This document shows positions 1,768 to 52,296 of a stretch of 64,000 bases of DNA, in pieces; the stretch's first letter is position 1; every line of letters begins with the position of its first letter. A program made the translations under genes and the position numbers. This stretch comes from Halanaerobium hydrogeniformans (lineage in GTDB: Bacteria > Bacillota > Halanaerobiia > Halanaerobiales > Halanaerobiaceae), in the NCBI RefSeq assembly GCF_000166415.1, contig NC_014654.1, positions 868,001-932,000 on the forward strand, in the 5' to 3' direction. The notes under the pieces were generated by a model that worked only from the letters and a program-made list of their open reading frames with translations, ran no database searches and was not told where the DNA came from.

Positions 1768-2658
1768 ATGCTTGAGGAGGAGAGTAAAATAGAAGAACTA
1801 ATAGAGAAGGCATATGTTTTAATCGAAGCACTACCATATTTTAAGGACTATTATGGCAAAACTTTTGTGATCAAATATGGTGGAAGTATTATGGCTGATG
1901 AAAAACTAAAAAAGAATTTAATTGAAGATATTACCCTGCTTAAATATGTTGGTATTAACCCGGTAATCGTCCATGGTGGAGGTCCTGCTATCAATAAAAC
2001 ACTTGATAGATTAAATATTAAAGCAAATTTTGTTGATGGACTAAGGGTTACAGATAAAGAAACAATGGAAATTGTAGAAATGGTTTTATCTGCCCAGATT
2101 AATAAAGAAATTGTTTCTTTGATTAATCAAATGCAGGCCAGTGCTGTTGGTATTTCCGGTAAAGATGGTAATCTAATTAAAGCGGTAAAAAAGACTTTTG
2201 ACTCAAAAGAAAAAGACCTTGGTTTTGTGGGTGAAGTAGAAAAAATAAACCCAGAGCTTGTTGAACAATTAATAGCAGATGGCTATATCCCTGTAATTGC
2301 ACCAATTGGAGTTAGTGAAAGCGGAGAAACATTAAACATTAATGCTGATAGTGTTGCAGGAGAGTTAGCAGTTGCACTTAAGGCAGAAAAGTTGATTTAT
2401 TTAACTGATGTAGATGGAATTCGTTATGATCCTGAAGATGAAAACAGCAGGGTTTCGAAATTAACATTTGCTGAAATTGATGAATGGATAGAACAGAAAA
2501 AGATTAAAGGGGGAATGGTGCCCAAGGTTAAAGGTTGTAAACAGGCTGTTGACTCTGGGGTGCTGAGAACCCACATTTTAAATGGTTTAGTACCACATCC
2601 ACTTTTACTTGAGATCTTTACTGATCAGGGTGTTGGAACAATGATAATTAAAGAATAG
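1768..2658 (+). CDS. argB: Acetylglutamate kinase
   Basis: Phosphorylates N-acetylglutamate with ATP, second step of arginine synthesis; member of the amino acid kinase fold. Visible motifs are KYGGS near the N-terminus, VHGGGPAIN (substrate and phosphate binding) and the later LTDVDG block. The start is doubtful. ATG 1768 has no Shine-Dalgarno sequence in front of it, while a strong GAGGAGG (1774-1780) lies inside the frame, 8 nt before an ATA codon at 1789. Starting there would give (M)EELIEKAYVLIEALPYF, which is where ArgB proteins normally begin. I keep 1768 as the conservative coordinate. The gene sits 50 bp after argC and 16 bp before argD and ends in TAG. Confidence 0.93.
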   Translation: MLEEESKIEELIEKAYVLIEALPYFKDYYGKTFVIKYGGSIMADEKLKKNLIEDITLLKYVGINPVIVHGGGPAINKTLDRLNIKANFVDGLRVTDKETMEIVEMVLSAQINKEIVSLINQMQASAVGISGKDGNLIKAVKKTFDSKEKDLGFVGEVEKINPELVEQLIADGYIPVIAPIGVSESGETLNINADSVAGELAVALKAEKLIYLTDVDGIRYDPEDENSRVSKLTFAEIDEWIEQKKIKGGMVPKVKGCKQAVDSGVLRTHILNGLVPHPLLLEIFTDQGVGTMIIKE

Positions 2659-5961: not shown

Positions 5962-6480
5962 ATAAAACTTAAGACAAGACAAATTGTTATTGCTGGAATG
6001 TTGGGAGCTATTTCTATTATTTTGGGGGCTACAGGTTTAGGGTTAATACCTGTTCCTACCCCGGCAGGTCATGTGACGATAATGCACCTACCTGCTATTT
6101 TGGGTGGTATTATTGAGGGACCTGCGGTTGGACTGCTGATCGGTTTAATTTTTGGTGTATTTAGTTTTCTTAGAGCTACCAATCCGATTTTTGCAGATCC
6201 TTTAATTGCAATATTACCGAGACTTTTTATTGGTGTTGCAGCTTATTATAGTTATAGGGCAACTTTAAGGCTAAATCAAAATGTATCTTTAGCAGTTGCT
6301 GGTGTAATTGGAACAGTTGTTAATACTGCAGGTGTTTTGACTCTGGCTGTTTTGAGAGGTTATTTACCGATGAGTGCAGCTTTAGCAGTTGCAGGTACTC
6401 ATGGGATTCCAGAAGCAGTTATTGCAGCACTTTTTGCAGTTCTTCTCGGAAGAGTTTTAATCAATTATCAGGCAAGCTAA
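5962..6480 (+). CDS. ECF transporter S component (vitamin-type substrate-binding membrane subunit)
   Basis: Very hydrophobic 172-residue protein with about five to six membrane segments and the motif VPTPAGHVTIMHLPAI typical of small S components of energy-coupling factor importers, which bind a vitamin or precursor and pair with a shared EcfA-A'-T module encoded elsewhere. Substrate is not readable from sequence; pantothenate- or folate-type relatives are plausible. The only standard start, ATG 5998, has a poor ribosome site and would cut into the first membrane helix. A strong GGGAGG lies 8 nt before the in-frame ATA at 5962, and the extra residues KLKTRQIVIAG look like a normal S-component N-terminus, so an AUA start is proposed. 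No ATG, GTG or TTG occurs in this frame between the upstream stop (5905) and 5998. Confidence 0.8.
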   Translation: MKLKTRQIVIAGMLGAISIILGATGLGLIPVPTPAGHVTIMHLPAILGGIIEGPAVGLLIGLIFGVFSFLRATNPIFADPLIAILPRLFIGVAAYYSYRATLRLNQNVSLAVAGVIGTVVNTAGVLTLAVLRGYLPMSAALAVAGTHGIPEAVIAALFAVLLGRVLINYQAS

Positions 6481-50420: not shown

Positions 50421-52193
50421 TTAGATTTCTTCTTTGTTTTCTAAGGCTAAAAGGGCAGGTTCTTTTAATTTTTGTTTATTTTTATTTAAAAATTGCTGAT
50501 AATCATTATCTTCTTTACCCAGTTCTTTATAGGCCTGTAATAAATAATATTTGAGCCAGTTGTCATCACTAGCCTGAAATATTTGCCGGAGAAGTTGAGA
50601 AAAGTCTGCAGCTTTAAACCCAAAATCTCTTAGAATTTCCAGAATAAAATAGAGGCTATGATTATTATTAATTATTGCAGAGCTCTTTTTTAAAATATTT
50701 TTTAAAGGGATCAAGAGCAGCTCATCCTGGTATGAGCCTATTATCTGAGCTGTAAGTTCCTGCTTTTTATAATCTTTATTAAGCAGATAATAGATAAGCT
50801 CAGCTGTGAGAACTGCTCTATCAGTATAATTTCTTTCTGTTTTATTTAATTCTTCTCCTATAAAATAGGCTTTCAATTTATTTTTCTTTAAGCTTTTTAT
50901 GATTTCTTCAAGTGGAACTTTATTTAATCTGGCCAGGATCTTGAGCTTGATTTTATCTTTTTTTGGATTAATACCTCTACTTAGCTTTTTAAAAATTATT
51001 TCTTCTGAGTGTTTAGCAGAACTGTTAAGTAATAAAACGATTCGCTTGATTATCTCTTCCTGCTTTTTTTCACCCAGATAATAGCTCAAAAATAAGAGGA
51101 AGTTCAGGTTTTTAGTGTTTTTGAAATAATATAAAGCTAATATATTAACTAACTGTGATAATATGATTAACATAAAAATTGTAAATAATATTATTCTAAA
51201 GCCTAATTCCCTGTAAAGGATTATTAAAAAGGGTTGGGCTAAAATAATAATTACTGCTAAAGCTGTAAAGATAAAAAGAGAAACAAAGGAAAACTTTTTC
51301 CAGAGTATAATTAAGCTGGTTAGAGAAAATATGAATAAAGCAGTATAAGTGATTAGAGTTAAATAAAAATAAAAAGGGCTGCCTTCTCTTAATGCTCTGT
51401 TAGAATTTATAGCACCTGCACCCAGTTTGGAATTTTGATATAATTCATCTTCGATAGGAGAAGCGGTTGTTTTAACGATTTCCAGGGCTTCAAATGGGTT
51501 TAGCTCATTATTATAAGCCAGCATTTTTGAGATTAAAGCTGTAAGTTGAGGAGCTGCAAAAGAGCTTCCCCTGCTGACTATAGTTCTACTTAAGTTAAGT
51601 GAAGGGAGATAAAGATACTGGTTAACTGCTAAAACACCAGGTGCAGAAATATCTATATATTCTCCATAATTAGATGCTGCCATCTTTTTGCTATTTTCAA
51701 GGGCTGCTACTGCAATAGTTTCTTCAAAACCGGCCGGATATATTTTTACCTCACTATTATTATTGCCTGCAGCAGCGATGATAAGCAGGTTAGGGCTGCT
51801 CATTTTTTCTATTATTTCTGCCTGTGAATCTTTTTCAGAAAAACCAAGGCTTATATTGACCAATATATTCTTGTCAGGATTATTTTCAGAATAACTTTTT
51901 ACTTCTTCTAAAGCCTCTAGATATTTATCCTGATCAATCTGTCCAAAAACATTTTCTACGGCTAATGCTTTTATTTGAACCTTCGATCTATTCCGAATTA
52001 TGGCCGCTATTTTACTTCCATGAGAGCTGTCTGCTGTTATTTTTGCCAGGGGAGATTGTAAATAGGCCTGATCTATTTGAGAATCAATTATAAAGATAAT
52101 AGTATCAGCATTTTGTGGAATTTCTTCAGAAATATGAAAAGCAATTAAAAATATTAATAAAGCTATTAAAGCAATAAAGAAATATTTTTTGAT
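50421..52193 (-). CDS. Membrane-anchored subtilisin-like serine protease with helical C-terminal domain
   Basis: 590 residues in the full frame. The N-terminus (I)KKYFFIALIALLIFLIAF is a signal anchor. The S8 catalytic set is complete: Asp37 in IIDSQID, His58 in SSHGSKIA, Asn144 in AAGNNN and Ser211 in RGSSFAAP. After the protease domain come about four membrane helices (residues about 275-370) and an approximately 220-residue charged helical domain with HEAT-like look that would face the cytoplasm. The long frame has no ATG/GTG/TTG near its beginning: a GGGAGG box stands 8 nt before ATC (52193). A TTG at 51861-51863 would give a protein lacking Asp and His, so the ATC start (or CTG 52199) is proposed. 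Confidence 0.78.
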   Translation of the reverse strand: MKKYFFIALIALLIFLIAFHISEEIPQNADTIIFIIDSQIDQAYLQSPLAKITADSSHGSKIAAIIRNRSKVQIKALAVENVFGQIDQDKYLEALEEVKSYSENNPDKNILVNISLGFSEKDSQAEIIEKMSSPNLLIIAAAGNNNSEVKIYPAGFEETIAVAALENSKKMAASNYGEYIDISAPGVLAVNQYLYLPSLNLSRTIVSRGSSFAAPQLTALISKMLAYNNELNPFEALEIVKTTASPIEDELYQNSKLGAGAINSNRALREGSPFYFYLTLITYTALFIFSLTSLIILWKKFSFVSLFIFTALAVIIILAQPFLIILYRELGFRIILFTIFMLIILSQLVNILALYYFKNTKNLNFLLFLSYYLGEKKQEEIIKRIVLLLNSSAKHSEEIIFKKLSRGINPKKDKIKLKILARLNKVPLEEIIKSLKKNKLKAYFIGEELNKTERNYTDRAVLTAELIYYLLNKDYKKQELTAQIIGSYQDELLLIPLKNILKKSSAIINNNHSLYFILEILRDFGFKAADFSQLLRQIFQASDDNWLKYYLLQAYKELGKEDNDYQQFLNKNKQKLKEPALLALENKEEI

Positions 52194-52296
52194 CCTCAGC
52201 CCCTCCCTTCTAAAAAAGTTTTGTTCTATTTAAATAATATTATATCACAGCTGGGGGAATTAAATTAAATTAAAGTTAATATATGTTTGTGAATTC

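Follow-up and report, generated by a model that had tools for sequence, protein, structure and literature searches.

Translation of a putative membrane-anchored subtilase gene of Halanaerobium hydrogeniformans very probably starts at an AUC codon, at position 52193, and the same spot is kept by the relatives of this organism. Judged from the sequences compared, the gene is a member of a set of genes in the order Halanaerobiales that would start at AUN codons (AUU, AUC or AUA). The gene lies in a window of 64,000 nucleotides, the whole stretch of DNA that was analysed, which is part of a single-contig genome of 2,613,117 bases (G000), and its features are as follows.

50421..52193, minus strand: gene of a putative membrane-anchored subtilisin-like protease, 590 codons from ATC to the stop codon TAA
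52191..52193, minus strand: proposed start codon ATC (AUC); the start column of the orthologues holds ATC in eight, GTG in one and TTG in one
52202..52207, minus strand: ribosome-binding box GGGAGG, 8 nt before ATC
52239..52244, minus strand: predicted -10 box TATAAT with TG before it (extended -10), a consensus match only
52083..52085, minus strand: codon of catalytic Asp37, invariant, upstream of the first canonical start, placed by alignment with subtilisin, in model strand 31-37
52020..52022, minus strand: codon of catalytic His58, invariant, upstream of the first canonical start, first residue of model helix 58-70
51561..51563, minus strand: codon of catalytic Ser211, in the motif G-[TS]-S-F-A-[AS]-P, in model helix 210-227

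The minus-strand frame is open from a stop codon just above 52229 to the TAA at 50421-50423, and the first ATG, GTG or TTG within it is TTG 51863, which is codon 111 and lies 110 codons after ATC 52193. The box GGGAGG (52207-52202) is followed by 8 nucleotides (GGCTGAGG), by ATC (52193-52191) and by AAA AAA TAT TTC, encoding KKYF; such a spacing is usable, since the canonical starts of the same genome peak at 6-8 nt. An in-frame CTG is located at 52199, 2 nt from GGGAGG, and between the -10 box and ATC the H. hydrogeniformans gene contains no ATG, GTG or TTG in any frame. An earlier note on this DNA had described the frame as open for 110 codons above TTG 51863, the box as standing exactly 8 nt before ATC 52193, and CTG 52199 as only 2 nt from the box, all of which were confirmed by reading the minus frame and the sequence upstream of it. 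Its further statement, that the added stretch holds Asp37, His58 and a signal anchor, likewise held, with both residues being invariant in the orthologues.

The frame encodes a Peptidase_S8 domain (Pfam PF00082, E 6.5e-18), and its product is, on the basis of sequence and a predicted structure, a putative membrane-anchored subtilisin-like protease. All nine sequences of the alignment share Asp37, His58, Asn144 and Ser211, the triad and the oxyanion Asn occur in the order and motifs of family S8, and the motif around Ser211 is invariant in the orthologue alignment except at its bracketed positions. In a profile search, residues 30-254 aligned with residues 25-264 of subtilisin BPN', the alignment beginning at residue 29-30. 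In the predicted model (mean pLDDT 77.5), helix 2-24 forms the N-terminus, Asp37 ends a strand, His58 opens a helix and Ser211 lies in another; long helices and a helical C-terminal part follow. The best structural matches of the model are subtilisins. Since Asp37 and His58 lie before TTG 51863 and within the subtilisin fold, the stretch before this TTG would be needed for an active enzyme. The 3' part of the gene (window 50421-51350, minus strand) encodes what follows the protease domain, namely long hydrophobic helices and a helical C-terminal region for which Pfam gives no match.

The comparison of orthologues covered 10 genomes carrying the gene, H. hydrogeniformans included, the nearest named orthologues being those of H. 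polyolivorans, H. kushneri and H. saccharolyticum, the last of which also has ATC. The start column holds ATC in eight genomes from two families (G000, G014, G004, G001, G008, G009, G003 and G005), GTG in the closest relative (G010, 76% identity) and TTG in G002. The earlier note had placed the start at ATC 52193, and the occurrence of ATC, GTG and TTG in one column across ten orthologues supports this placement; the comparison had been set beforehand as the refuting test, and the GTG of G010 and the TTG of G002 were found at exactly the ATC column, not shifted. A purine-rich box precedes the start column in all ten genomes, reading AAAGGAGG in most, with GGAGG 7 nt before ATC in the orthologues. 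TATAAT is located 38-51 nt upstream of ATC in G000, G004, G001, G008, G009 and G005, and in these six genomes no ATG, GTG or TTG occurs in any frame from TATAAT to ATC; the leader of G003 likewise lacks these three codons. Only G014 has leader ATGs, at -18 and -6, which are badly placed, lying before the box or too near to it.

Two other placements of the start have to be weighed against these data. Initiation at CTG 52199, giving M-R-I-K-K-Y with ATC merely as the third codon, would be in frame and would use a known rare start codon; however, this CTG follows GGGAGG by 2 nt, which is too close, no orthologue has CTG at that position, and CTG is not in excess at strong ribosome sites in the genome scan described below. 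We regard this placement as very improbable, and CTG 52199 was rejected as the start for its wrong spacing and lack of conservation. The second holds that an ATG in another frame is joined to the gene by a frameshift, either programmed or a sequencing error, or that the true start is TTG 51863, the choice of gene finders limited to ATG, GTG and TTG, with the frame above it open by chance. It is extremely unlikely, as the leader offers no ATG, GTG or TTG in any frame, the extension is open in the nine other genomes as well, where Asp37, His58 and further residues are conserved, and independent genomes could not share a sequencing error. A frameshift from an upstream start codon was rejected for want of such a codon in the leader.

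The reading that AUC 52193 is the start can be extended to the codon itself. Ile fills 12 of the 120 residue columns that are invariant across the eight ATC genomes, and of these 12 the start alone has an identical codon in all eight, the other 11 being variable. When the start, Met and Trp columns are left out, 19 of 116 invariant columns are codon-identical. Because the start is the sole codon-identical Ile column and ATC makes up 19% of the Ile codons in these genes, it is the codon AUC itself that is kept. An ATG stands at the start column in none of the 10 orthologues, the place always being taken by a weaker codon, and this absence of AUG from the sequences hints at selection for a weak start.

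Similar starts are found in other genes. The earlier note had pointed to two more genes of the window with an 8-nt spacing between box and AUN codon, and these are the following, in both of which ATA proved to be kept across the Halanaerobium genomes compared.

1789..2658, plus strand: argB (acetylglutamate kinase), proposed ATA start at 1789, 8 nt from the box
5962..6480, plus strand: S (substrate-binding) component of an ECF transporter, proposed ATA start at 5962, 8 nt from the box

For argB, ATA occupies the same column in 10 of 10 Halanaerobium genomes, and five genomes of other families have ATG or GTG; for the ECF component, ATA is present in all 12 Halanaerobium genomes and in G013, ATT in G012, whereas seven genomes from other families carry ATG, GTG or TTG in that column. 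Elsewhere in the genome, infC, encoding initiation factor 3 (IF3), starts with ATC in 20/20 Halanaerobiales genomes read (loci L139-L158). The minE gene (G000:C1:1275133, plus strand; L166, L177, L245-L258) has ATC in 17/17 genomes of the order, behind AAGGGGGGAG or GGAGG; this ATC is the sole conserved start-like codon, an AUN codon two codons later not being conserved, and in most genomes read no canonical start codon lies between the upstream stop and the conserved N-terminus. The RNase Y gene, rny (G000:C1:1436105, minus strand; L164, L169, L216-L218, L228-L244), has ATT in 23/23 genomes of the order, one codon earlier in G020. A GTG inside its ribosome box, three codons upstream of ATT and without a box of its own, may be mis-annotated as the start.

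In the orthologues read in G010 and G004, AUN is kept for RNase Y (ATT), argB (ATA), the ECF component (ATA) and MinE. For a T2SS-F-like protein the codon is ATT in G000 and either ATC or ATT in relatives; for a nitrilase-like protein AUN, as ATT, is kept in one relative. At the same column, ATT of a regulator at 155721 corresponds to ATG in G004, ATT of a gene at 1312843 to GTG in G010, and ATA of a permease at 348724 to ATG in G010. Protein names in this set are our assignments by inspection, except for those with Pfam matches. With the subtilase included, ten AUN starts are supported by relatives in the 636 genes sampled, or about 1.6%. An ACG start considered for gcvPA (window 37446) was rejected, as the N-terminus of the family is better matched by a downstream TTG that has a strong box. 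Further AUN candidates with strong boxes, seen in scans only, are located at 110467, 247504, 284430 and 104747 of G007:C1 and at 316670, 269220, 91673 and 221853 of G017:C1.

The breadth of this set also bears on an account in which AUC is the start of the subtilase and its weakness is not selected, the ribosomes of the order tolerating AUN so that starts drift among AUN and canonical codons. We consider this account possible, with somewhat less than even confidence. In its favour, the genes with AUN starts are unrelated and serve housekeeping, transport and regulation. Against it, the third base is stable, in the subtilase (ATC in all eight AUN orthologues, in genes whose other 11 Ile columns vary) as well as in infC, minE and rny, with the counts given above.

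The frequency of such starts was assessed by scanning 864 kb with 636 genes, about a third of the genome, for AUN codons at strong, uncontested ribosome sites. There were 19 AUN events, spread over 15 genes, where the other codons led us to expect 7.8 (p = 0.0013), and ATA, ATT and ATC were each in excess at strong ribosome sites, whereas CTG was not. Four further scans covered 400 kb each, two in genomes of the order (G017 and G007) and two in controls of the same class outside the order (G044 and G039). AUN codons were in excess in G017 (7 against 2.6 expected, p = 0.03) and non-significantly more frequent than expected in G007 (4 against 1.7), and no excess was found in either control (2 against 2.3 in G044; 2 against 3.7 in G039). 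Pooled, the order yielded 30 AUN and 98 other events and the controls 4 and 51 (odds ratio 3.9, p = 0.006), statistics that are rough, with neighbouring codons of one gene counted separately and thresholds set while the data were in view. A single AUN case from a one-genome scan can be due to chance, AUN codons being common Ile codons, and the orthologue evidence is the stronger part of the argument. The boxes of supported AUN starts have a median of -13.5 versus -11.5 kcal/mol, a biased comparison in that these starts were partly picked by box strength.

Several components of the initiation machinery were inspected for a cause. The anti-Shine-Dalgarno tail is standard. The rRNA methylases KsgA, RsmD, RsmH, RsmB and RsmI are linked to start fidelity, and their loss was rejected as an explanation for KsgA, RsmD and RsmH, all of which are present. 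An alteration of 16S positions 1338/1339 (E. coli numbering) was also rejected, these positions being normal in G000 and G007. In every Halanaerobiales genome read (L268 in G000; L259-L288), A29:U41 replaces the first of three G:C pairs that are conserved in the anticodon stem of the initiator tRNA, and in G024 and G027 pair 31:39 is also altered, to G:U; the pair and stem are normal in G044, G050 and G053. These G:C pairs are gripped by the ribosome, and discrimination against CUG falls in vitro when the neighbouring pair, G30:C40, is swapped (PMC11497404), so that the unusual pair lends support to drift among tolerated starts. The control G039, however, has A29:U41 without an AUN excess, which speaks against such drift; A29:U41 was rejected as a sufficient cause on the same grounds, and the tRNA change is at most permissive.

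For the preferred start at AUC 52193, initiation may proceed as follows. A strong Shine-Dalgarno helix would position the ribosome at the codon, and the initiator tRNA, with its CAU anticodon, would read AUC by two correct pairs and a third-base mismatch. The protein should then begin with formyl-Met, and initiation would be weaker than at AUG. By analogy with infC, IF3 might tune this start, and by analogy with S. aureus, where AUN starts behind extended boxes yield about 10% of AUG (PMC13009471), and with Streptomyces, the level of the protease would be held low and may depend on IF3. Attenuated, IF3-sensitive initiation is likely, on these analogies, to be the role of AUN starts. More broadly, and only tentatively, we suggest that AUU, AUC and AUA could form in the Halanaerobiales a standing class of weak starts, in about 1-2% of genes, comprising an IF3-sensitive group (IF3, MinE, RNase Y, ArgB, transporters and the membrane protease) whose output would vary with the supply of IF3, the class being supported by an initiator tRNA that lacks one of three near-universal G:C pairs in its anticodon stem; we consider this broader proposal less likely than not.

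Because ATG, GTG and TTG are the only starts accepted by standard gene finders, AUN-started proteins of the Halanaerobiales would be given truncated or misplaced N-termini, and the mis-started genes would include basic ones, such as minE and that of RNase Y. A set of AUN starts that is both dense and old would also provide a natural system for asking what purpose start-codon discrimination serves, raising the questions of why the third base differs between genes yet stays fixed within each, whether the genes are coordinated through IF3 and whether the change in the initiator tRNA is permissive.

The protein resembles subtilisin (peptidase family S8) in its Asp-His-Ser triad, oxyanion-hole Asn and predicted fold, and differs from it in having an N-terminal signal anchor without a recognised propeptide and in its added hydrophobic helices and helical C-terminal region. 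NCBI table 11 includes AUN starts, and individual cases have already been established: infC starts with AUU in E. coli, ATC in Streptomyces and AUA in S. aureus, and pcnB with AUU in E. coli. In these genes, as here, the AUN start stands behind a good ribosome site, and the infC of Halanaerobiales itself has AUC; autoregulation by IF3 explains infC, whereas no comparable reason is evident for the protease, argB, minE or rny. No reports on start codons in Halanaerobium were found in the open-access literature. When about 69,000 starts were reconstructed for closely related genomes, AUU was listed as the new codon twice, and AUA and AUC never (PMC5622118), although that work uses annotated starts, which miss AUN cases. 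Streptomyces sigR has a GTC start that is repressed by IF3, is found in 32 of 34 species and was mis-annotated as a GTG inside the ribosome box (PMC5472188). It shares with the present set a conserved non-canonical start and a mis-annotation at an in-box GTG that could likewise befall Halanaerobium rny, but it concerns GTC instead of AUN and one gene, and its control by IF3 is experimental, whereas that in Halanaerobium is inferred. Experiments in S. aureus have established AUN starts behind extended Shine-Dalgarno boxes for ccpN (AUA), cvfC1 (AUU) and citZ (AUA), at about 10-30% of AUG, and those of ccpN and cvfC1 are conserved among related species (PMC13009471). The likeness lies in strong boxes and conservation in relatives; the difference is that S. 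aureus has four such sites, in other genes, in its whole genome (PMC13009471), compared with ten supported in about a third of the genome here. The kind of start is thus not new, and what appears to be new is the density and order-wide conservation of AUN starts, together with the case of the protease.
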